Below, in pieces: positions 15,390-53,210 of a stretch of 64,000 bases of DNA. Under the pieces are notes generated by a model. The model saw nothing but the letters and a program-made list of their open reading frames with translations, was not told where the DNA came from and made no database searches. The DNA lies in the NCBI GenBank assembly GCA_003242885.1, contig QKMZ01000017.1, positions 50,026 to 114,025 of the forward strand. Reading direction: 5' to 3'. Within the stretch, counting starts at the first letter, position 1, and every line of letters starts with the position of its first letter. The DNA comes from Candidatus Melainabacteria bacterium (GTDB taxonomy: Bacteria; Cyanobacteriota; Vampirovibrionia; Obscuribacterales; Obscuribacteraceae). Position numbers and translations under genes: made by a program.

Positions 15390-17174
15390 CTAAGAATCTG
15401 GTCGAAACTGATTGTCCTTCGAAGATATAAGTGTCGCGATTCGATGGGCGACAACATTCATAAGAGCTTCAACAGTGACTTGAGCATCTTCGTCAGGAGC
15501 TGTTGCTTTCAAAGCTCGAAGCGAAACAAGCAAAGTCCGCAAGTCTTTGAAAGTCGAAGTAGACACCTGCAGTTCTTGCAGCCGTGCTAATTCAGACAGC
15601 CAATAGCGATCACACGTTTTGGACATATCCGCAAGAAGTAGATCACGTTTTCGCTTCTCCTTTTGATCACGCATTTTCAATTCAAAGACTATACGCCTGG
15701 CAGCCAAAAGGCCGGCCGGAACATCTTTTTTGTCAGAAGGAGTCAGGGGTGCGGTTTCTGAAGAACCACCCCCCTCCACACCGTTATATTCGTCCGTACA
15801 GATTGCAAAGAAGCCATCGGCCAAGTCTTCATATGCTTGGCGCCAGATGTCCTCATGTTTATAGAGGGTCTCACGAGAGCACTGGGCCGATTTTTGCAGA
15901 TCGACTGTTGTGAACTTCACACTGGCGCTCTTGAGCTTTTCTAGTGCGCTTTGAATGCGTTTGCGAGCATCAACTTTGCGGTTTGCATTTTCTCGGACCC
16001 AGGAAATCGGCTGTACCGGTGCATATTTTTTGGGTTCATCTTGGCGCCTGTGTGGTGGAATCCAATTGGCGGCGCGTTCAATTTGAGATACTGCATCGGC
16101 TTCGCCCTTATTGAGGTCTTTGCTGAAGCCGTTGTGACGAAGCTCGAGTATTTGTTTTATAGCCAGTTCCCTTTCGGTTTCATATCCATAACCAAGCGCC
16201 GGCAGCGCACAACTTGGGTCGCCGTAGAAGAGATAGTGAGAAAGGCAGTGAATCGCATCGGCTCGTTGAGAAGGTCCGCTCAAACCAGTTGCATGATAGG
16301 TGCGTCCACGAAACCAGTCGTCGGCACGTATGCCCGGAGGCATAACCGAAAAAATCGCGGCAACATCTTCTGTATGTTGTCCGGCGATTTTGACTTTGCG
16401 ATCCGGCATTGCAATTACATTGCCAGGCGTTCTCGGCTGTGCTCTCAGTGCCGTAACTTTGTCCAATTTTTCTGCACAGAGAGTTGCATGCTTTTGAAGT
16501 TCTTCGAATTGAGCCCGCGTATTCGAGCAACTATTAGCCGCGTCCAGAAAATAATCAAGAGCTTTAGTTGGACTGAGTTCCCATCTTTCTATATCAGACT
16601 CCAAATTCCTGTCATTGAGAAAAGCGAAGCCGGATTGAAGCGGAAGACGCAGACCCATGCCGGCAGATGCATGTGAAACATTAGGAAAAATCTCCAACTC
16701 GCCCGATTTTATACGAAATCCCGTATAAGTCAGAAGATTGACCAGCGCTCGTTTTAAATGCAGGGAGTTGACGAGTTCGTCGAAAAATATATATAAATGC
16801 CATCCACTGCTTGTACTCGAACGAAAAGGCACAACTTGCGTGATACCGGCATCACGCAGGACTCTCTTCAACTTATTGAATGACCGAAGGTTGTGATATG
16901 GACTTTCCGCATCAATATCTAAGACAGCAAATCGAGTTTGTTTGCCGAAGCGAAAACCAAGCAGATACTTCGGATGAACTCCAGCTACAGCCTTGAGTAT
17001 TTCAGTGTCTGTGAGCCGCCAGTCTTCATTTGCTGAAAGCCAGGAGTCCGAGTCGTGCGGACGATATATATATTGGTATCGATGATGGTGAAACAGTTGG
17101 AGAAATTCAGAAACAGTGTCATCCCAACTTTCTGGAAAGATTACTGCGCGCTGAAATCTTGCGGGCCGCTGCAC
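15390..17174 (-). CDS. AEP-like primase/replication protein (intact copy, plasmid A)
   Basis: FAVLDIDAESPYHN (DxD), SSGWHLYIFFDE (sxH-like), GLRLPLQSG; homologous layout to 50404-52275. Confidence 0.7.
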   Translation of the reverse strand: MQRPARFQRAVIFPESWDDTVSEFLQLFHHHRYQYIYRPHDSDSWLSANEDWRLTDTEILKAVAGVHPKYLLGFRFGKQTRFAVLDIDAESPYHNLRSFNKLKRVLRDAGITQVVPFRSSTSSGWHLYIFFDELVNSLHLKRALVNLLTYTGFRIKSGELEIFPNVSHASAGMGLRLPLQSGFAFLNDRNLESDIERWELSPTKALDYFLDAANSCSNTRAQFEELQKHATLCAEKLDKVTALRAQPRTPGNVIAMPDRKVKIAGQHTEDVAAIFSVMPPGIRADDWFRGRTYHATGLSGPSQRADAIHCLSHYLFYGDPSCALPALGYGYETERELAIKQILELRHNGFSKDLNKGEADAVSQIERAANWIPPHRRQDEPKKYAPVQPISWVRENANRKVDARKRIQSALEKLKSASVKFTTVDLQKSAQCSRETLYKHEDIWRQAYEDLADGFFAICTDEYNGVEGGGSSETAPLTPSDKKDVPAGLLAARRIVFELKMRDQKEKRKRDLLLADMSKTCDRYWLSELARLQELQVSTSTFKDLRTLLVSLRALKATAPDEDAQVTVEALMNVVAHRIATLISSKDNQFRPDS

Positions 17175-17378: not shown

Positions 17379-17666
17379 TTAGCTCTCAGTTGTTTCGACG
17401 GTAACAGTCACCTCCTTGCCGAGCTTGTACAAGAACTTCACGAGAAGTTCCGCGCTAAATTTGTCGATGCTCAAATTCAAGATTTCAGAAATTCTGGGTT
17501 GTTTAACTCCAAGTTTCTGAGCGGCTTGTTGTTGAGACATGCCTGTCTGCAAAAGCTCCTGCTTGAGTTGTCCAATCAGTACGGTGCGAAGTGCCAGACA
17601 CTGACCTTCAGCCGAGGGCACACCTTTCTTGCGAAACATCTGCCTGTAGTATTTGACTTCGTTCAT
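17379..17666 (-). CDS. XRE-family HTH regulator
   Basis: LLQTGMSQQQAAQKLGVKQPRISEILNLSIDKFSAELLVKFLYKLGKEV. Confidence 0.8.
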   Translation of the reverse strand: MNEVKYYRQMFRKKGVPSAEGQCLALRTVLIGQLKQELLQTGMSQQQAAQKLGVKQPRISEILNLSIDKFSAELLVKFLYKLGKEVTVTVETTES

Positions 17667-17745: not shown

Positions 17746-19149
17746 TTATGACGTATTTGTTCCGAACGGCAGCGTCAGCTGCTCGTATGAATCCCAGTCA
17801 GTGTCTGCATTTTTAGATGCACTGACTTCTTTCTTTTTCTTTGCAGGTCCATCTCTAGACGATGATTTTCGCGATTGCGATTTCTTTAAATCAGTATTCT
17901 CTGACCGAGGAGGCGGACGTTCATTTGAACCTTCATGCATGAATAAAAGTGTTTGAACCATTGATTCTTCAGCGTCAGCTTGAGATTCCAAACTGAGAGG
18001 TTCTGCGGACAGACCTTTATCCTCAGCCGGATCTAAATTCTCAGACATGGCTTCTGTACTTTGCAGCTCAACAATTTGTGGTGCAAGAGTTCCTTCAGTA
18101 ACATCTTTGTCTCGAGCGAAAAGCTGTTTTTCGCAGTCTTCTGTTTCTGAATCAATTTGCTCAGTCGAAATCAAAGCAATGGGATCAATGCAAACAGGGT
18201 CAAAATAATCACTTGTCTGGTCAGACTGGACAAGTTGGTCATCATGGACAATTGCCTGAAACTCTTGCTCCTGTTCGATTTCAAGGATGTCGTCCTGAGT
18301 CTGAACAAGTTGCAACAGGGCAGTTTCGAAATCATTGTCTTGTGCCTGGACAAACTTCTCTGTTTCCAGGTCAGATGAAAACTGCTCACTCTTTTCAACC
18401 AAGCCGGTTGGCGTTTCTATGGGAGAAAAGTCCATCTGCTTATCTGTCTCGATTGTCTGGACAGAAGTTTCTAGTGGTGTGAAATCGATGAGTGTTTCTG
18501 GAACTTCATCCTTAATAGATTGAATTGCCGGCACCTGAAGCATTGCGTTCTCAAAAGTTTCATAGGCAACAGCGTTTGTTCGCAAGTCTTGCATGAACAT
18601 CGAAACAGCGTTCTGAAAAGACATTTCCGATGCAGCAACAACGCGCACAAGGTCGTCATTCAACCAGTTAAAACTGGCTTGGAGTGGAATTTGAAGTGGT
18701 GCGCCGGAAGGAAGTATAGATACGGCCTCCGAATCCACATCAAACCAGTTGTTCTTTAGCCACGTCGCAGCTACCTTAACAGCGGTCGGAGTAGCAACAG
18801 ACTCGGCAAAGAAGACAAAGATTTGCCAGAGTTCTAGTTCATCTATATAAAAGGTTTTCGGTTGAAGACCAGTGTCTCGGAGCTGTTTTTGGAGATTTTT
18901 AGTCGTCTGAAAAGCTGTTGGGGACTTAGTTCCATCTATTTGAATAACAAGGAATTTGCTTTTATCTATTACTCCAAAAGCACGACGTACAGAAGAATCT
19001 GCTGAAAGACTGGAGATCAGCTCGTCGTCAGAAAGATAGTGCCACTGGCTGGTCGCTCGCCATGTCTTAGAACTTTTCGAGCGAACATATGTTTGATGAC
19101 GTTCCGCAAACAACCTGAGGAATGCAGACAGCTCGTTTCTATCAGCCAA
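17746..19149 (-). CDS. AEP-like paralogue with degenerate catalytic motifs and acidic C-terminal region
   Basis: Aligns to 15390-17174 and 50404-52275 but has FLVIQID, LWQIFVFF, LQIPLQAS at the DxD/H/R positions. Confidence 0.6.
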   Translation of the reverse strand: MADRNELSAFLRLFAERHQTYVRSKSSKTWRATSQWHYLSDDELISSLSADSSVRRAFGVIDKSKFLVIQIDGTKSPTAFQTTKNLQKQLRDTGLQPKTFYIDELELWQIFVFFAESVATPTAVKVAATWLKNNWFDVDSEAVSILPSGAPLQIPLQASFNWLNDDLVRVVAASEMSFQNAVSMFMQDLRTNAVAYETFENAMLQVPAIQSIKDEVPETLIDFTPLETSVQTIETDKQMDFSPIETPTGLVEKSEQFSSDLETEKFVQAQDNDFETALLQLVQTQDDILEIEQEQEFQAIVHDDQLVQSDQTSDYFDPVCIDPIALISTEQIDSETEDCEKQLFARDKDVTEGTLAPQIVELQSTEAMSENLDPAEDKGLSAEPLSLESQADAEESMVQTLLFMHEGSNERPPPRSENTDLKKSQSRKSSSRDGPAKKKKEVSASKNADTDWDSYEQLTLPFGTNTS

Positions 19150-19241
19150 CGCGGGTACAGAAGACTCCTTCTGTAGGTCCTCACGAGTATTAATGGCTAG
19201 TCTCTCTTTCTAGTATTTATTGAACGGAAATTTGATTTTGG

Positions 19242-19266
19242 TGACACCACTTGCGGTGTCTTTTAT
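19242..19266 (+). terminator. Hairpin + T-tract antisense to the leader of 17746-19149
   Basis: GACACC-acttgc-GGTGTC-tttta. Confidence 0.55.
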
Positions 19267-19339
19267 AGATCGATCAGATCCTAAAGCCCGGAGAAGAAAT
19301 GATCAAGATCTATTTGGGCTGATCTGCGTTAGTTTTTGA

Positions 19340-19570
19340 GCTTTTGCCTAGACTGACCGGACAGAATATACAAAGAATGTCTAGACAGTCCAGTTCCAAT
19401 CCTCAGACAAGATAGCATATGTCTAGACGGACTAGACGGTCAAGACATATTTTAATTTTGCGGCACCAGATTCGGTATCGATCCATTCCCTTACCTTGGT
19501 CAAAATTCTGACTAGACAGCAAAGAAAATCAGTCTAGACAGTCCAGTCATTCGAGTCTAGACAGTCTACG
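19340..19570. repeat. Iteron-like cluster of GTCTAGAC palindromes (candidate ori/operator region, plasmid A)
   Basis: GTCTAGAC at 19379-19386, 19421-19428, 19532-19539, 19555-19562; GTCTAGACAGTCCAGT repeated exactly at 19379 and 19532; partial copies nearby. Confidence 0.65.
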
Positions 19571-19746
19571 CACCACACCCATGGCGCGACCAGTCACGCC
19601 CCGCCAACCCCGTCCCGTCGACATTTACAGGGGCAGGGCAGTCAAAGTCATTTGTCCAGACAAAGTTTCAAACTAAAACAGGTGCACCAAATACGGTTTT
19701 TCACTATAATGACCAAGTCGCCCGTTACTAGATTTGGATATATCCG

Positions 19747-20415
19747 ATGACTAGACTGTCTAAGCAACCCATGGCAAAAATGCCTTCAATGTCTGACCAG
19801 CCTGTCCAGACATTGGCTCAAGAAGGCAGCTGGATGTCCCTTCAAGAAGCTGTCCAGGCAACGGGTGTATCGGAAAAAACGTTGCGCCGCTACGTGAAGA
19901 AAAAGGCACTTCAGTCTAAACGGTTGGGCAAACTTGCAAATTCGCCTCTGCAAGTATGGATTACGCCGGAATTTGCAAAGGACGTTAACGACGATATTCC
20001 GGAGGAACAAGATGACCTCGATGTTGTCGATGCGGAGTCGGAAAGCATTGAAGATGAATATATAGAAGAAGACTTTTCACCGGAAGAAAAGCCTCGATCT
20101 AATCCTTCGCAAGAAGTTGAGCAGATCATAAAGACTATCGCAGAACAGTTCGGAAACAAGCTCGACGAGCAGAAGGAAGTCATCTTTCAATTACGTCATG
20201 AGCTGCAGGAAAAGGATACGCAACTGCGTTTGTTGCCTGACTTGCAGAAGAAATTGGAAGAAGAAGAGAAACTCAAAGATTTTGAGACGACCGCATTGAA
20301 GAAGCAAATCGAAGAGCTGAACAAAGAAAATGCTGAGCTAAAAGAAGCGGCTGAACAATCGAGCAAGGCGGCTTCACAGAAAAAAAACTTCTGGGGTTGG
20401 TTCACAGGCAAATAG
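19747..20415 (+). CDS. HTH/coiled-coil DNA-binding protein (replication or partition accessory, plasmid A)
   Basis: WMSLQEAVQATGVSEKTLRRYVKKKALQSKRLG HTH followed by long Glu/Lys/Gln-rich coiled coil; divergent from AEP-like paralogue. Confidence 0.6.
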   Translation: MTRLSKQPMAKMPSMSDQPVQTLAQEGSWMSLQEAVQATGVSEKTLRRYVKKKALQSKRLGKLANSPLQVWITPEFAKDVNDDIPEEQDDLDVVDAESESIEDEYIEEDFSPEEKPRSNPSQEVEQIIKTIAEQFGNKLDEQKEVIFQLRHELQEKDTQLRLLPDLQKKLEEEEKLKDFETTALKKQIEELNKENAELKEAAEQSSKAASQKKNFWGWFTGK

Positions 20416-44970: not shown

Positions 44971-45403
44971 ACACCTATTTTTCCCAAAGCGCAGTTTCTT
45001 TGACGTGAGGCAAACACATCGGCTGAGGCCGCTTGCAGAAATTACTTAAAACTTCGGACGTATAAACTCAATAAGTACAAGAGCTTTGACCAATTTCGTA
45101 TAAATACAGACAAAATTTTCCCTGGCTCCGGCAAGCAAAACGGTTAAATTATGAGCAATACAGACAAAATCGGATCACCTTTTATCCTGCCTTACGGCAC
45201 TGCGTGGCGTCCGTTGCGCTTCAGTTCCACTTCAGCGCCGGGAGTGCTAGCGCACCTCGAGGAGCGTCCGGGCGCCGCGATTTGTTCTATTTCGACAAAT
45301 GGTAGTTGTCGATTTCAGAAGTCGGTGTCACAAATTTCAAAAGAGGATGTCACGACTTCTTCAGGGTCGCTTCGCTTCAAGGAAGCGCTTTTGCCAAACC
45401 ACC

Positions 45404-46387
45404 CTAGTACAAGGTCCAGCGCATCAGTTCCTTTTCAACCTTTTGCTTCTGCTCCTCCGAGCATCGGTTAAACAACATTTCAGTGGAAAGCAAAAAATAT
45501 CCATTCTCCAGCGTCATGTGGCGATGCTCCATTAGATCTAATGCGGTCGCTAAAACTATCGCCCATCTTCTAGCTGGGTCCTTTTGGTTTCTGCTTAGAA
45601 AAAGAATTTTGGGACAACGCTCGCACACGAACTTTTGCCACTCGACCCGTTTACCATAAGAGTTCATCGGCTGTCTGAGCTGACGATGAACCACCTTAAG
45701 TAGCCGAAACCACCTAGCAGCATCAGTAAGTCCTCCAGGCAACATAACACTCCCTTCTGTCACAGCCGCCCAGGTTCGACCGTCCAGCTTACTCACAACG
45801 CTTGGAGCCGGTTCAGGTTTCTCTTTCTGCCAGGCAATAGAACTCCCTGTTACTCGGACTGCTTCCAACATCAATCTGTGCACTGGACATGACAGAAAAA
45901 TAGCCAGCCGCCACGGAAGCAAAAAAGCTGCGTCCGGATAACCCTCCATGCATAAACGACACACTAACACCTCGCTGCCCTGCGCCTTCCGAAACCACCG
46001 GATACCATCAGATAGTCGACTGCGCGTTAGCCAGATTGCTCTCGACCCAAGCTCCTTAGTTTCAAAACAATCGAAAAGAAACGGCATCAGACCCGCAAGC
46101 GTTGCTCTCTGGACGGCCTCCAGCTCCACACCTGTTCGCTCAGATATTGCCTTTATTAGCTGCTCCGGGGGACTCCGGTCCAACGTCGGTATTTGCAATC
46201 CTTGAAAACCAAGCCCCCATCTCAGCAATTCTCCCGTACCAAGTCCATAAACAGCTCCAATTCTTCTGAGCCAGGATGACAAACTCTCGCACGGAAGCAG
46301 CGGCGGATGCCCCGGCCATCGCATTGTCATCACTTCACCCCTTCTCAAAGGCTCGGCGCCTCTCGGGCGGCGATTGGTATTGCGCAA
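45404..46387 (-). CDS. tniQ: TniQ family transposition protein
   Basis: PPLLPCESLSSWLRRIGAVYGLGTGELLRWGLG; CRLCMEGYPDAAFLLPWRLAIFLSCPVHRLML. Confidence 0.85.
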   Translation of the reverse strand: MRNTNRRPRGAEPLRRGEVMTMRWPGHPPLLPCESLSSWLRRIGAVYGLGTGELLRWGLGFQGLQIPTLDRSPPEQLIKAISERTGVELEAVQRATLAGLMPFLFDCFETKELGSRAIWLTRSRLSDGIRWFRKAQGSEVLVCRLCMEGYPDAAFLLPWRLAIFLSCPVHRLMLEAVRVTGSSIAWQKEKPEPAPSVVSKLDGRTWAAVTEGSVMLPGGLTDAARWFRLLKVVHRQLRQPMNSYGKRVEWQKFVCERCPKILFLSRNQKDPARRWAIVLATALDLMEHRHMTLENGYFLLSTEMLFNRCSEEQKQKVEKELMRWTLY

Positions 46388-47240
46388 GCCTTAATGTCTT
46401 TTCGTTGATGCATTCCTCGCCGCTGTTCACCGCTTCTATCGCTGCTGCGTTAAGTAATCTCGCAATTTCTCCAATGGTTCCTCCTGTTTTAGCGAGAACA
46501 TATTTGGACAGTCCAGAAGTCGCTATTCTCGATGGATGCTTGAGCGGCAGCGCAGCCGCAAAGCTGGCCATCAACGACCTAAGCTCTTCTCCTTCCTCCC
46601 AGACTGGCAGCATAAGCGGCTCAAACCGATTTTCCAGTTGATCATCTGACCTTATTGCCAGGTACGCTTCCCGCGTACCAACCCCCACTATTGGTACCTG
46701 AAGCTCATTTCCTAAAAATCTGAGTAGATTCAAAAACCCCCGCCGCGTTCGTGATGAGCCTGCCAACACATTATGCAGCTCGTCTATAATTAGCATCTTT
46801 ACTTTCACTGTTCGGCAAAGCCGCAAACTGAGCTGCTCTAGCTCAGCCACCTGTGCACGAGGCCTAATTGGCGCTCCGATACTACTCAACAGCATTTCAT
46901 AGAATCTTCCCGTTGCTGGCTCTGACGGCACCTGAACCACAACTATCGGAATTACTCCTGGTTCAAATTCTCCGCATCCAGCCACCATTTGATCTCTTCT
47001 AAATTTCTCTACTATCTTGCTCTTGCCATTATTGGTCGGCCCAACCATCAGGACATTAGGCATTCTCTGTTTTTTCGGCCACAACATTAGTTCGTCCAAC
47101 CGGCTTAGTGCCGTTTGCGCTTTTGCATACCCAATCCACCGATCACTACGAATATGCCAAACTCGCTCTTCATTTGGAAGCAATGCTGCTTCACGGGCAG
47201 CTTCGGTCAAATGGCTCAGATCCGGTGTGACTATGCTCAT
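46335..47240 (-). CDS. tniB: TniB AAA+ ATPase
   Basis: MVGPTNNGKSKIVEKF Walker A; MLIIDELHNVLAGS Walker B. Confidence 0.9.
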   Translation of the reverse strand: MSIVTPDLSHLTEAAREAALLPNEERVWHIRSDRWIGYAKAQTALSRLDELMLWPKKQRMPNVLMVGPTNNGKSKIVEKFRRDQMVAGCGEFEPGVIPIVVVQVPSEPATGRFYEMLLSSIGAPIRPRAQVAELEQLSLRLCRTVKVKMLIIDELHNVLAGSSRTRRGFLNLLRFLGNELQVPIVGVGTREAYLAIRSDDQLENRFEPLMLPVWEEGEELRSLMASFAAALPLKHPSRIATSGLSKYVLAKTGGTIGEIARLLNAAAIEAVNSGEECINEKTLRLAQYQSPPERRRAFEKG

Positions 47241-47244
47241 AAGA

Positions 47245-48963
47245 TCACCACTCCTCTACGTCAAATGGCTCAATTAGCTTCTCTGTCCCAGTTTCGTCTT
47301 CTGGAATGGCAAACTCAACACTCTTGAGCCATTCCTCAACTTCAAATGGCTTCACGTAGCTGTCTTCATCTACTTCTTCTGCTGACACGATAGGGGTGGA
47401 TTCCTCTGCCGGCTGAGCAAGATGTGCTCTACGATTCTTATCCCTCCGAGCCCGCTTTCTCTCCTTAACCGCACTTTCCGTAATTTCGCGCATCTCTTCA
47501 ATCATGCTGAAAATTGCTGCTTCATCTACTTGCTCTAACCCTCTCTTTCGCAGGTTCTCAACAGCTTTTCGGTGTTCCCACTGTGTTACCGGCGGCCGTG
47601 AAAGTGTTCGGTATGGTATGTCGAAATAAAGCTTGCTCTCAGGATCTAGAACCCAGATTCGGCTCAAATCTCGCGGATCTCGCCGAATAATGAATTTCCC
47701 CAGACGATCACGGCTCGCTATCCAGGGTTTAAGAACATCTCCAAAATATGTTATGTGGTCTATTAAAAATCCCTGGCGCGTAACCCTTCGCTCTATCACC
47801 GGAAGAAAATCAATCAAGAATGTCTGCTTATCTCTTATATCAACAATCGGAAAAGCCTCAATGCTTCTCTTCCAAACGGCGGCCGGCGTCTCTGTCAAAG
47901 TGCCGTGTATGGTCCCGTGATATCTCGCTATAGCCAACACCAGCCACTTCTCCAGCTCCGACAGTGTCAAGCTGGCGGTCCTTTCCGGCTTGTCTGTTCC
48001 AAGCTTCTGAACATTTGAAAAGGTAGTGCCCGGCACCTCGTGACTCATTGTCATCGCTGTGCCTATTACACGCTCTATGATCCCACCAAAGTGTGGCTGC
48101 CCTTTTGGTCGATAATCCTGCTCAATGCCATACTGCTCACAACCTCGCTTGAGTGCTTCACTGTGGAACTCCGGCGCGTTGTCTACATGAATCTTTTTCG
48201 GCTTACCACGCATTGGCCACAACCTGATATCGAGCCCAAACCGCTCCAACCAAGCACTTTTGTCCATCACAACATGCACCAGACAGAGTCCCACCGACAG
48301 AGTCGAAGGAGCCTCAAGAGTAAGCAGCATGCCGACTATACAGCGCGTAAAAACATCAATCGCCAAGGTTAATGACGGTCTGCCGATAGCCTCTCTTGAT
48401 GCCTCATCAACAACTTCGACATCCATTTTTGTGTGATCAATTTGAACCACCGCCATGGGACCATCCGCTGGCGGCATTTCTCCCGCTGCCGGTTGAAGCC
48501 GTCTAGCTGCTGTTCCTCCTTGCCTCTTCCTTGTTACCATCAGCGGATCGAGCGTTTCGATTCGCGCGTCTATCGTGTTATACGTCGGAGCCTGCTGCCC
48601 AGACCTAATACAGCGCATCCGAATCTCACGCGCTATTACTGCCCTGGAGCGCCTTTGCCTGGACAGATATAGGCTCTTGAGCACTTCAGCAATGATTACT
48701 TCTACTTCTGGACTAATTCGAGATTTGCCTTTGCCGCCTGGAGGACTACTCCGGGCCATGTCTGTCACCAGCCCCTGACCCATCCGATATCGCTTCACCA
48801 GCCTATAAACTTGCCTGCTACTTATGCCGAGCATCGCTGCCGCCTCCTCGGCCGCAGTCAGACCAACAACCTCTTCTTGAGCAAGTGGCGCTATTACCTC
48901 GCTGCGTTTCTTCGCCCAGATCCACTCTCTGTCCGTTAGCAGTAGCACTCCATCTTCCTGCAT
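47245..48963 (-). CDS. tniA: TniA DDE integrase/transposase
   Basis: VVQIDHTKMDVEV, SLTLAIDVFTRCIVGMLLTLE, IHVDNAPEFHSEAL, GIIERVIGTAM; start set at ATG 48963. Confidence 0.9.
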   Translation of the reverse strand: MQEDGVLLLTDREWIWAKKRSEVIAPLAQEEVVGLTAAEEAAAMLGISSRQVYRLVKRYRMGQGLVTDMARSSPPGGKGKSRISPEVEVIIAEVLKSLYLSRQRRSRAVIAREIRMRCIRSGQQAPTYNTIDARIETLDPLMVTRKRQGGTAARRLQPAAGEMPPADGPMAVVQIDHTKMDVEVVDEASREAIGRPSLTLAIDVFTRCIVGMLLTLEAPSTLSVGLCLVHVVMDKSAWLERFGLDIRLWPMRGKPKKIHVDNAPEFHSEALKRGCEQYGIEQDYRPKGQPHFGGIIERVIGTAMTMSHEVPGTTFSNVQKLGTDKPERTASLTLSELEKWLVLAIARYHGTIHGTLTETPAAVWKRSIEAFPIVDIRDKQTFLIDFLPVIERRVTRQGFLIDHITYFGDVLKPWIASRDRLGKFIIRRDPRDLSRIWVLDPESKLYFDIPYRTLSRPPVTQWEHRKAVENLRKRGLEQVDEAAIFSMIEEMREITESAVKERKRARRDKNRRAHLAQPAEESTPIVSAEEVDEDSYVKPFEVEEWLKSVEFAIPEDETGTEKLIEPFDVEEW

Positions 48964-48999
48964 AAGACCTCCGTCCTCGGTGGTTAGCCATGCAAAGTT

Positions 49000-49023
49000 T
49001 CTCAAAAAGAACCTTTTATGGGA
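49000..49023. repeat. Candidate tyrosine-recombinase core site inside the transposon, plus accessory half-site at 49092-49100
   Basis: TCTCAAAAA-gaacct-TTTATGGGA (7/9 matching inverted arms); TTTATGGGA again downstream. Confidence 0.55.
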
Positions 49024-49111
49024 CACTGCCCTGAAAAAAAACCTCGATAACGGGCATTTTCATTACAGGCTCCAACAGTCTTCCAGCCATCTTTTATGGG
49101 AAAGTGCACAA

Positions 49112-49702
49112 ATGCCCAATTCACCTCCGCCAAAAATCCCAAATATAGAAAAACGGTCTCGTGAATATTTGACCCAAGCGGAGGTCAAGCAAATGATCGA
49201 CGCTGCAAAAATTACTGGCAGATACGGTGCAAGAGACGCTTTACTCATTCTCGTTAGCTATAGACACGCGTTGAGAGTGGGGGAGTTGATCGAATTAAAG
49301 TGGGACCAGTTCGACCTGGACAATGCTCTATTTCATGTGAATCGCCTGAAGAATGGCAATCCGTCAGTCCACTATCTGGAAGGCGATGAGATTCGTGCGC
49401 TTAGAAAATTGCGCCGGTCCTACTCAGACTCAACTTTTGTCTTTTGCTCTGAACGTCAAGGACCTCTGACTAAAAGTGCCGTTCACAAAATAGTCGTCCG
49501 CGCCGGTCTGCTTGCCGGTCTTGAATTGTCCGCTCATCCGCACATGCTTCGCCATGCCAAAGGTTTTCAGTTAGCGTCCAAAGGTGTGGACACACGGGCA
49601 ATCCAGGCGTACTTTGGCCATAAGAACATCCAACATACCGTCACCTACACACAGCTTGATCCCACTCGCTTCAAAGGCTTTGGCAAGGATCTGAGGTTAT
49701 AA
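49112..49702 (+). CDS. Short FimB/XerD-like tyrosine recombinase carried by the transposon (candidate resolvase)
   Basis: YRHALRVGELIELKWDQFDLD, HPHMLRHAKGFQLA, AIQAYFGHKNIQHTVTYTQ; close homologue of 31322-32026. Confidence 0.85.
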   Translation: MPNSPPPKIPNIEKRSREYLTQAEVKQMIDAAKITGRYGARDALLILVSYRHALRVGELIELKWDQFDLDNALFHVNRLKNGNPSVHYLEGDEIRALRKLRRSYSDSTFVFCSERQGPLTKSAVHKIVVRAGLLAGLELSAHPHMLRHAKGFQLASKGVDTRAIQAYFGHKNIQHTVTYTQLDPTRFKGFGKDLRL

Positions 49703-50152
49703 CCGTTGCCACCAAACGAATGTGACACTGACTTCTGAAAAATAGCCTTATGTGACATCGACTTCTGAAATTCTCACCCCTCTTTTTTTCAACAGTCGAT
49801 GTCACAAGTCTCACCCTTGCCGGATCGAGAATGACATCCACTTCTGAAATCGACAGGAGTCGCTACACCTCGGCACAGCACGACCGCCTACTTAGATTTT
49901 CAAGCTCTCTTTAATTTGTCGTGCGGCTAAAGCCCCCTCGGGGCGTGCAGGGTTCATCAAGCCCCGATGTAAGGGGCGCTTTCTGCTTTGCACGCAGGCA
50001 CAGCACATACGAAGAGCAACAAGCTAGAGATTTCTCGCCGCCCTAAAGCCAGTTTGAAATTTTTGCATCACTAGGGAATTCCACCTTTTTCTATCCAAGC
50101 CTTTCAGGCGAGGATGTCATTATGGTTTTAGAGGTAAGCATGGAGTGCCCGT

Positions 50153-50407
50153 ATGAAAAAGAAAGCCGAAAAAATCGACCGTGAAGTGGTTGAGAATATG
50201 ATGGTCGATACAACAAGGCTCAGAGCGGCTTTGATGTTGGCGTGCCTTGAACTTACCCAAGGTGATTTGATTGCGGCTATCGATTTATCTGAGGAACTGT
50301 ACGACACCGCGCCGAAATTACTTGAAGGTCTAAACGAGACGGGCCTGGATAATTTGCCGTGCGGTCCAGCCAAAGTGCTCCCTTTCCCCAAAAAAACAAG
50401 CAATTAA
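50153..50407 (+). CDS. Small hypothetical protein
   Basis: 84-aa ORF. Confidence 0.4.
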   Translation: MKKKAEKIDREVVENMMVDTTRLRAALMLACLELTQGDLIAAIDLSEELYDTAPKLLEGLNETGLDNLPCGPAKVLPFPKKTSN

Positions 50408-52275
50408 AAACTGGGCGGACCTCTCAAGCTTTTCGCCGTTTTCTCGATCAGTGAAAATTCATCTGCAAAACCTGATGAATAGCCCTGATTGCCCGTTGTC
50501 AAGAATTTATAATTGATAGGCTTGGTGGCTGTTTTCCTGTTTTTGTTTTTTGCTCCAAAGAAAGGTAGGGCGCTGGTTTTAGTAGCTGCGCCTGTCTTTT
50601 CTTTAGTACCGCTTACGGTGGCATCAGTATAGCAAACTAAGCCAGGTGCTTGGTTCCGAGAAATGGAAGAAATTCCCTCCGCACCCATCTGCCCCTCTGC
50701 CCGAATACCGTCGAACCAGGGCCCCGGTGTAAATACTTGCTCAACAACCCGCAGGGCTTGGTCTTTACGCTGGGGGTTCGATGGTTGGCTATTCGCCGGG
50801 CAGATTGTAAGGGGGGCTACCGAAGCGGTTTTACTGTCTTCAAGTTCTCGATTCGCTAAGTCCAAATCCGAACAAGGCGGAATTTCTGATTTCTCTTTTT
50901 CTTCAAACCCAACTTCCGGAACTACCGAACCCGAAAAATCCCCCCACACCCCCCGGTTATAAACGCTGGGCCAGATAGCCAAGAGATCAGAATGCTTTGA
51001 AATCGTGCGCCGATTGCAGCCTGCTTTTCTGGCAATTTCCGATTTAGTTAACACCACGTCTTCTGCCAAAAGTTCTTGGATGGCTTTCTTGATTCGGTTT
51101 CTTGCATCTTCCAGGCGTGCATTATTCGCCTCGGCCATCCGGTCTACCTCATACAGTCGGCCGGTCTTCGCATATACCTCTAGCAGCCTCTTCAAGAGAC
51201 GATCAGTTAGAGGGTAGGGTTTTCTAGCCTCATAGTTTTTTCCTCGCCTCCAGAAGACCGTTCGCCATATATGCGCCTCAATTTCTTTCCATTGCTCTAA
51301 ATTGATGTGCCTGCAAAAACCGTTGTGTTTCTTTTTCAGCCAGGCCTCAATCAGCCTTGCCCTGGTTTCATCATTTCGTCGGCCTGGATATGCCGGGACG
51401 TTCTCTGAAGGATCTCCATACCAGAGATAATGACCCACAGCCATGACAGCATCGTGTCTTTGCCCTTTTGCTGTCAGCCCGTAAAGCCAGTGCTCACGCC
51501 CTTTGTCCCAAGTCTCTTGAATCTTCCCTTTTCTGAACAGATCATCAAAACCCGCAAGCGATATGACTTTTTCATGCTCCTGGGCGCCGGCGCCGGCATG
51601 ACTGCCGGCGGATTGAATTTGGCTTTCTATCAAGGTTTTGGCATTCTGCCAATTTCTTGAATTTTCTTCGAAGTCTTGAAGGAATGAGGCTAGCGCCTCG
51701 TCTTCTCTTATTTCTTCTCTTCTAACTTCTATACTTCCATCCGGAGCAAGCCAGCCAAAGCCTTTCTGAAGGGGCAGTCGCAGAGCGTTTCCGCTCGGAA
51801 AAATCTCGAGCTGTCCGGAGGCAATTTCATAGCCCAGTGTCTTTAGCCAGGTCTTTAGAGTCTGGTTTACTTCGTCACTTTCGGCCCATTCCTCAAACGG
51901 CAAATACAAGTGCCAGCCGCCTGAATCGCTGCTTTGATACGGAATTCCGTATAGGCCGACTGCAGCTAAATGCGCCTGCAGTTTTTGCAGTTCGGTTTCA
52001 TTGTGATATCTGCTGCCTATATCCAAATCCAAGACAGCATGCCGGGTCTTGTGTGACCAGTAGCAGCCCCGATAAAGACCGCGCCCTTCATCTGACACCA
52101 CGCCCAAGATCTGAGCGTCCAAGAGCGGGCCCACGGCCTTCTGCCATCGCTCCTGGTCATAGGTCTTCCAGATAAATGCATCACGGCGAGGAAACAACGA
52201 AGAGAATGCCTCTCGTTGAAATAGAGTTGTTGGGCCGCTATCTGCGGCTGTTAAAAATGCTGTAGCTCCGGTCAC
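50404..52275 (-). CDS. AEP-like primase/replication protein (intact copy, plasmid B)
   Basis: HAVLDLDIGSRYHN (DxD), SGGWHLYLPFEE, LRLPLQKGFGWL; HTH-like KSEIARKAGCNRRTISKHSDLL. Confidence 0.7.
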   Translation of the reverse strand: MTGATAFLTAADSGPTTLFQREAFSSLFPRRDAFIWKTYDQERWQKAVGPLLDAQILGVVSDEGRGLYRGCYWSHKTRHAVLDLDIGSRYHNETELQKLQAHLAAVGLYGIPYQSSDSGGWHLYLPFEEWAESDEVNQTLKTWLKTLGYEIASGQLEIFPSGNALRLPLQKGFGWLAPDGSIEVRREEIREDEALASFLQDFEENSRNWQNAKTLIESQIQSAGSHAGAGAQEHEKVISLAGFDDLFRKGKIQETWDKGREHWLYGLTAKGQRHDAVMAVGHYLWYGDPSENVPAYPGRRNDETRARLIEAWLKKKHNGFCRHINLEQWKEIEAHIWRTVFWRRGKNYEARKPYPLTDRLLKRLLEVYAKTGRLYEVDRMAEANNARLEDARNRIKKAIQELLAEDVVLTKSEIARKAGCNRRTISKHSDLLAIWPSVYNRGVWGDFSGSVVPEVGFEEKEKSEIPPCSDLDLANRELEDSKTASVAPLTICPANSQPSNPQRKDQALRVVEQVFTPGPWFDGIRAEGQMGAEGISSISRNQAPGLVCYTDATVSGTKEKTGAATKTSALPFFGAKNKNRKTATKPINYKFLTTGNQGYSSGFADEFSLIEKTAKSLRGPPSF

Positions 52276-52576: not shown

Positions 52577-53000
52577 TCAGTGAACAATCATAATTAGTCA
52601 GTGACCATATCTGAACATTCTTTAGAAAGCCCACCTGATGGAAAAAATTGAATCGCACGAACTTCAAAGTGACCTAAGCATGGTTGGCTTTGAAAAAGTA
52701 TTTGTTCAAGTTGAACAAACTGAAAAAACTGAACAATCCGACAAAAAAACCGATGTTCATGAACATATTCAGGAATTTGAAGCAGACTCGACCGAATTGG
52801 TCAGCATGGCAGAAGCCTCCAGGCGTTTGAAAATTCCTTATCCAACTTTACGCCGCCAAGTCTTGGCTGGAAAGATTGAAAGCTCGTTAGGTCGCGATGG
52901 AAAACCGCTGGTCAGATTGGCCAGGCATGAAAAGCCATCGAATATTCGCGAACAAAAAGTGAACAAACCAGAGCCGATTACGGTACAAAGTGAACATTCA
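52577..53000. repeat. GAACA-type motif cluster including palindromes (candidate operator/ori/centromere, plasmid B)
   Basis: TTGTTCAA-g-TTGAACAA (52702-52718), TGTTCATGAACA (52754-52765), upstream cagtgaacaat/cagtgaccat/ctgaacatt, further gtgaaca in the ORF. Confidence 0.55.
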
Positions 53001-53210
53001 GCGAATATTCAACGATTGCTTGAGGTCATTGAGTCCGAGCGAAGTTACTCGCGCAGTCTCAATGAAAGGCTAGAAGCAGCGAATCACCGCAATGGATACC
53101 TTGAAGCACAAGCAGAAGGCTTTCAAGAGCAAATCAAACTCCTGACTGATAGTCAGCATAAGCGCGGTTGGTGGGCTCGTTTTAGTTCTTGGTTCATGAC
53201 CGGCAGATAA
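52638..53210 (+). CDS. HTH/coiled-coil DNA-binding protein (plasmid B counterpart of 19747-20415)
   Basis: VSMAEASRRLKIPYPTLRRQVLAGKIESSLGRDGKPLVRLARH then coiled coil; same divergent position next to AEP gene. Confidence 0.6.
   Translation: MEKIESHELQSDLSMVGFEKVFVQVEQTEKTEQSDKKTDVHEHIQEFEADSTELVSMAEASRRLKIPYPTLRRQVLAGKIESSLGRDGKPLVRLARHEKPSNIREQKVNKPEPITVQSEHSANIQRLLEVIESERSYSRSLNERLEAANHRNGYLEAQAEGFQEQIKLLTDSQHKRGWWARFSSWFMTGR

Follow-up and report, generated by a model that had tools for sequence, protein, structure and literature searches.

The window, the whole 64,000-nucleotide stretch analysed here, lies in a 6.73-Mb genome of 17 contigs. It contains three AEP-like genes, one of which (P0001) has lost most of the positions needed for catalysis. 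We refer to AEP copies that have lost the catalytic positions as dead, and to those that retain them as intact or active. The features discussed below are as follows.

15390..17174, minus strand: intact AEP P0002, 594 aa, presumed plasmid primase (Pfam AEP-TOTE, 4.9e-7)
17379..17666, minus strand: small XRE/HTH_37 gene between the dead and the active AEP (Pfam HTH_37, 4.6e-14)
17746..19149, minus strand: dead AEP paralogue P0001, 467 aa, an intact ORF with a full-length orthologue (G037:C105)
17749..18534, minus strand: acidic, poorly conserved tail of P0001, residues 206-467 (composition and conservation)
17764..17781, minus strand: clamp-binding-like motif QLTLPF, P0001 residues 457-462 (motif in 23 of 25 dead tails)
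18535..19149, minus strand: AEP-fold domain, P0001 residues 1-205 (AF2, Foldseek, VIA and motif positions)
19150..19746, no strand: intergenic GTCTAGAC/CTAGACnGnC repeats, putative origin/operator
19747..20415, plus strand: divergent HTH (HTH_17/MerR-like) and coiled-coil-like protein, 222 aa (Pfam HTH_17, 1.7e-4, below its cut-off)
50404..52275, minus strand: intact AEP P0003 on a second plasmid, without a dead partner; comparison copy

The uninterrupted ORF of 467 aa described for P0001 in the earlier note was borne out, on the minus strand. Its start codon is TTG, and the closest orthologue, with 46% identity over the full length, has ATG at the aligned position. Searches of P0001 against NCBIfam, PHROGs and Pfam gave no significant match. 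The catalytic positions of its AEP-fold domain are occupied by Q70, D72, Q109, S144 and Q153. In motif I, the first Asp is replaced by Q70 (VIQID for VLDID) and the second is retained as D72. The His of motif II is replaced by Q109 (LWQIF for GWHLY). The Glu that serves as the third acidic metal ligand (LEIFP in P0002) is Ser144 in P0001 (AVSILP), and the Arg of LRLPLQ is Q153 (LQIPLQ). The three Gln substitutions relative to the intact copies, on which the earlier note was built, are thus real. Its statement that all three signature catalytic positions had changed to Gln holds for the Asp, the His and the Arg as residues. However, the Arg, although present in all 78 intact relatives, lies outside the three classical AEP catalytic motifs, Ser144 is a fourth loss, and D72 is kept.

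Structural modeling placed P0001 within the AEP superfamily. The AF2 model of residues 1-215, built from an alignment of dead relatives only, had a pLDDT of 92 and a pTM of 0.88. Its best PDB match was the Prim-Pol domain of Marinitoga CAPP, 7nqd (Foldseek, E 2.5e-8), and superposition with VIA gave a Z score of 17.1 over 186 residues at 3.6 Å. Nearly all the remaining VIA rows were AEP enzymes, including LigD, Prim-PolC, PriS and human PrimPol. P0002, which retains all catalytic residues, gave a model with a Z score of 17.9 to the same structure. In profile-profile comparison (hhalign), the dead and active families matched with 100% probability and an E value of 1.5e-46. This value, together with the match of both predicted folds to one AEP structure, puts the resemblance far above chance. 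By its predicted fold and its descent, P0001 is an AEP superfamily member; the structure prediction and superposition that the earlier note had proposed came out in favor of the AEP fold. The shared fold alone is no proof of function.

The active family aligns with CAPP at DxD, GxH and E-I-F-P, and mutation of the DxD pair kills activity in two CAPP enzymes (PMC8211822). Where an active primase has DxD in motif I, His in motif II and a third acidic ligand, P0001 has QxD, Q and S. Because the positions aligned to CAPP are replaced and the CAPP DxD mutants are inactive, P0001 has very likely lost catalytic activity.

P0001 had matches in 39 of the 50 genomes of its bacterial family, and the fetched loci yielded 118 AEP-like ORFs for comparison of dead and active copies. 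These split cleanly. The catalytic positions were retained, wherever the region was present, in 78 and lost in 40; among the latter, 27 had none of the five positions, 13 had one, and none had more. In the tree, the two groups were separated by a single branch with 99% SH-aLRT support, which label shuffles never matched; within the dead group the branches were long and the inner order was unsure. The 40 dead paralogues make up a family of their own, clearly set apart from the active AEPs. They come from one family of Melainabacteria, which are non-photosynthetic relatives of cyanobacteria. The dead domain was also more acidic than the active one, with a median net charge of -5 versus -1. A class-level search of 382 genomes added only two weak matches outside this bacterial family. 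At the phylum level more outside relatives appeared, and the four aligned loci to which our reading applies (L166, L167, L168 and L170, with L169 left out) showed active-type residues. A profile scan of genome contigs with a two-row alignment matched the G037 orthologue only. P0001 gave no tblastn match in PLSDB, and no viral relatives were found in IMG/VR with either the dead pair or the active family as query.

The Gln residues proved to be conserved in part. The G037 orthologue carries the same three (VIQVD, LFQIF and FQIPLQ), and Gln replaces His in 29 of the 40 dead AEPs. At the remaining positions the replacements are diverse, with Gln in place of the first Asp in 10 of 40 and of the Arg in 2 of 40. 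Gln as a general signature of the dead family was therefore ruled out, His to Gln being the only common change. The Pro of LPLQ was retained in all 40.

A decaying duplicate of an active AEP might be expected to show missing catalytic residues and a rapidly evolving tail, such as are seen here. However, the ORFs are full length across the family, and a single branch with strong support sets the dead members apart. The dN/dS (NG86) between P0001 and its orthologue was 0.18 in the domain and 0.21 overall, with dS near saturation, and was below 0.5 in all other measurable pairs. A confident fold from a dead-only alignment and a conserved motif in the tail likewise argue against a pseudogene. The pseudogene reading was rejected on the intact ORFs, the dN/dS, the tree and the motif, and decay is all but excluded. 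The earlier note had also favored a catalytically dead AEP over decay, and the AEP fold, the 40 dead members, the same Gln residues in the orthologue, the low dN/dS (about 0.2 in the comparison it had suggested) and the gene order together give that view strong support. The two contrary outcomes it had named, absence of an AEP fold, and random substitutions with frameshifts in relatives, did not occur.

The C-terminal part of P0001 is of a different character. The tail has a net charge of -43 over residues 206-420, and its end is slightly basic. The acidic C-terminal half had been recognized before, and its 59 Asp or Glu among 262 residues confirm it, but the clamp-like motif near its end, which points to a mechanism more specific than those considered in that note, had been overlooked. 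This motif, QLTLPF, lies 11 residues before the C-terminus. Comparison with the orthologue gave 85% identity over the motif region and 24% over the remainder of the tail. A match to QLxL[FL] or QLx[LFI]P[FLIV] was present near the C-terminus in 23 of 25 non-redundant dead tails of at least 60 residues; the second, hexapeptide form, which is P0001's own, was added to the test after the tails had been inspected, and the 25 tails are homologous proteins, not independent samples, though otherwise hardly alignable. Shuffled tails gave a mean of 0.34 matches and a maximum of 4 in 2000 runs. The strict consensus QLxLF, an established beta-clamp motif (PMC4549789), occurred in 14 of the 25, with 0.07 expected. 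The clamp-like motif was rare in active AEPs (1 of 78) and in the last 150 residues of other ORFs (15 of 440). Similar motifs are found in host proteins, including DnaE (QMNLF), MutS (QLSLF) and a Y-family polymerase (QISLF). The tail peptide of P0001 thus resembles a sliding-clamp docking motif, which suggests a putative clamp binder. A second possible clamp-like stretch, QTLLF, occupies residues 399-403 (window 17941-17955), with QSLFF at the aligned place in the orthologue.

The setting of the gene was examined in the sister loci. In 15 loci that contain both genes, a divergent HTH/coiled-coil gene is followed by a repeat-bearing intergenic region, the dead AEP and the active AEP, the dead gene coming first and on the same strand as the adjoining active one. 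In several of these paired loci the small XRE gene lies between the two AEPs, as it does in the window. The 17379-17666 gene is of antitoxin type and is 86% identical to its G037 counterpart, while the AEPs are 46-47% identical. The earlier note had described the divergent HTH/coiled-coil gene and an iteron-like region next to P0001, as well as an active copy in the matching place on the second plasmid. All of these were found: the repeats lie between P0001 and the HTH gene, and the active copy at 50404-52275 is divergent from a gene at 52638-53210. However, the note had missed the intact AEP that lies directly downstream and whose pairing with the dead gene is conserved. The GTCTAGAC/CTAGACnGnC repeats lie at 19345-19570, and a further copy, at 19748-19760, falls where the HTH gene begins. 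CTAGAC repeats at 19345-19570 are well above chance, and seven of the eight matches in the window fall within 19348-19760. The GTCTAGAC repeat is common to L052, L064 and L067, and other loci carry different repeats. From its position and its repeats, we infer that 19150-19746 is a putative origin. The P0001 gene adjoins the repeat array, as iteron-type initiator genes do, and the HTH protein, which had no sequence match in the PDB, may be the repeat binder.

The HTH family was divergent upstream in all 15 paired loci and in 41 of the 57 loci with a solo active AEP. From the solo loci, the basic replicon looks like an HTH gene, a putative origin and an AEP, and the dead gene looks like an addition to it on the origin side. 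In the fetched DNA, 57 of the 72 active AEPs examined had no dead neighbor. P0002 has relatives on 66 plasmid records in PLSDB, where the organisms named are cyanobacteria.

Variation among these parts was seen within one MAG, G004, in which three contigs (C35, C37 and C57, with loci L074, L064 and L075) carry the paired cassette; their co-residence rests on binning. The three active AEPs have a protein identity of 98-99% and a DNA identity of about 93-94%. In contrast, the dead AEPs are 26-28% identical and the HTH proteins 31-47%, and the intergenic repeats also differ. The DNA similarity ends at or near the dead gene. A simple copy made in assembly is ruled out by the DNA differences among the active genes. 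No terminal overlap was found in contig C8 or in the three G004 contigs, so that a circular form is only putative for these. Identity correlations were 0.47 for dead-active, 0.48 for dead-HTH and 0.28 for active-HTH, which leaves the partner of the dead protein undecided. The swap fits the dead AEP, the HTH gene and the origin being the part that differs between compatible plasmids. Together with the position beside the putative origin, it points to an origin/specificity module, within which the dead AEP is not separable from the HTH gene and origin. The earlier suggestion of a copy-number, incompatibility or origin-binding factor is accordingly plausible for the module, and its assignment to the dead AEP in particular did not stand out from the HTH gene and origin.

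Tentatively, and with a confidence that falls slightly short of even, we propose that P0001 is a dead AEP primase reused as a clamp-tethered, non-catalytic adaptor of plasmid replication initiation. The dead domain would make no primers itself and would bind DNA of the origin, a primed single strand or a partner bound at the origin. The tail, presumably flexible, would capture the host sliding clamp, which in turn would deliver Pol III to the primer synthesized by the neighboring intact AEP. The fold and the motifs are computed; the function of P0001 is inferred. The dead AEP may also help to set plasmid specificity, because differences in the dead gene go with differences in the HTH gene and the origin, even where the active AEP is nearly unchanged. 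Several points weigh against the adaptor. Clamp and DNA binding by P0001 are both putative, and the acidity of the dead domain relative to the active one disfavors strong DNA binding. The 57 active AEPs without a dead neighbor imply that AEP replication can generally proceed without the dead protein, and L052, although a paired cassette, has no match to the clamp motif. Moreover, several dead genes are alone on large contigs, so plasmid initiation cannot cover all members.

Plasmid AEP primases are able to synthesize primers, but how the host polymerase reaches these in bacteria has been little studied. If the adaptor proposal is true, the link would come from a conserved dead AEP that lies next to the origin and bears a clamp-docking motif. 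The dead AEP would also be a candidate determinant of incompatibility in a large group of plasmids on which there has been hardly any work. A broader proposal, which we hold with some reserve, is that a whole primase family has lost catalysis, carries a clamp tether and has become a plasmid initiation and specificity factor, which several genera also retain by itself in fixed places on large contigs. Such a family would parallel, among AEPs, the role of ImuB as a dead polymerase hub, and would be a replication enzyme turned non-enzymatic scaffold. In the open-access literature we found no description of a dead or inactive AEP family, with or without a clamp motif, nor of such a conversion elsewhere in the AEP superfamily.

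Other functions would also account for part of these observations. A dead copy of an active enzyme is a natural competitor, and P0001 could be a negative regulator of initiation, Hda-like in principle, that occupies origin or primer sites. It would act on meeting clamps loaded on DNA, so that a just-replicated plasmid is not re-primed, and would thereby set copy number and incompatibility. The type of the motif (QLSLPL in Hda; PMC3836487) and the divergence of dead AEPs between replicons of one MAG agree with this, but the motif equally suits recruitment and there is no known DnaA-like partner or target in this system; we regard the regulator as unlikely, though deserving attention. The order of the genes in the 15 loci, with the dead one first, adjacent and on the same strand, would suit a PriL-like non-catalytic subunit that pairs with the downstream active AEP in a heterodimeric primase and shapes priming, since homologous domains could pair. 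A specific interface is hard to reconcile with active AEPs of 98-99% identity going with dead AEPs of 26-28% identity. Most active AEPs have no dead neighbor and some dead genes no active one, and the only Cys residues of P0001, Cys320 and Cys339, are both in the acidic tail, leaving no PriL-type iron-sulphur domain. On this balance a PriL-like role seems improbable. Finally, the stand-alone, motif-bearing dead genes in conserved neighborhoods on large contigs could reflect a general clamp-associated factor of DNA metabolism (repair, fork restart or element defence) that travels with these plasmids. Against such a factor stands the close association of the dead gene with the repeats in the cassettes on plasmids, and we give it a low probability.

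Comparison with known systems clarified where the adaptor proposal borrows and where it departs. It is modelled in principle on TrfA and ImuB. TrfA of plasmid RK2 is not an AEP but an iteron-binding Rep of another fold. Like the role proposed for P0001, it is an initiator with a clamp-binding motif, and that motif is required for replisome assembly at RK2 oriV (PMC4980987). ImuB is an inactive polymerase relative with the clamp motif QLPLWG, through which it becomes a clamp-bound hub to which an active partner is attached (PMC10421592). It belongs to the Y-family and works in mutagenic repair, whereas the P0001 model has the AEP fold and not the Y-family fold; the two would be alike only in the way they work. 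The QLSLPL of Hda is close to QLTLPF, but Hda is an AAA+ protein that acts on DnaA and has its motif at the N-terminus, while that of P0001 is near the C-terminus. PriL, the large subunit of archaeal and eukaryotic primases, is likewise a non-catalytic partner of an AEP catalytic subunit; its architecture differs, with a C-terminal four-Cys iron-sulphur domain where P0001 has two Cys only. Marinitoga CAPP shares the AEP fold with P0001. The CAPPs studied are active polymerases that need the DxD Asp pair (PMC8211822), and P0001 lacks the catalytic set; unlike CAPP, P0001 has a clamp-like tail, and no CRISPR context was seen at its locus. The cyanobacterial plasmid AEPs matched by P0002 in PLSDB (e.g. 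NC_005231.1) are intact family members and, unlike P0001, presumed active enzymes. The plasmid Rep CyRepA1 was set beside these relatives as a further comparison; any kinship of P0002 with CyRepA1 itself is putative.

Dead AEPs without an active neighbor were found in conserved neighborhoods, mostly on large contigs, with the clamp-like motif present in some and absent in others. They formed four groups: L044, L054, L056 and L063; L050, L059, L060 and L066; L053, L055 and L058; and L071 and L072. In the third group, a Replic_Relax-family gene lies directly upstream of the dead AEP (L058:8686-9600, minus strand), an arrangement conserved in L053 and L055.

The contig of the window (C17) appears to consist of two plasmids that meet at a Tn402/Tn5053-like transposon (window 45304-49861 and 63902-64000; C17:1-104, L157), and both contig ends are copies of transposon ends. 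The 5-bp direct repeats pair, with GTAGT assigned to a large plasmid of about 100 kb and GGAGT to a small one of about 18.6 kb. P0001 and P0002 are on the large plasmid and P0003 on the small one. The join is either an assembly join or a real cointegrate. The large plasmid also carries a gene for a DisA-type (DAC) cyclic-dinucleotide cyclase with sensor domains, which adjoins a ThiF-family gene (L158:3118-4569, minus strand).
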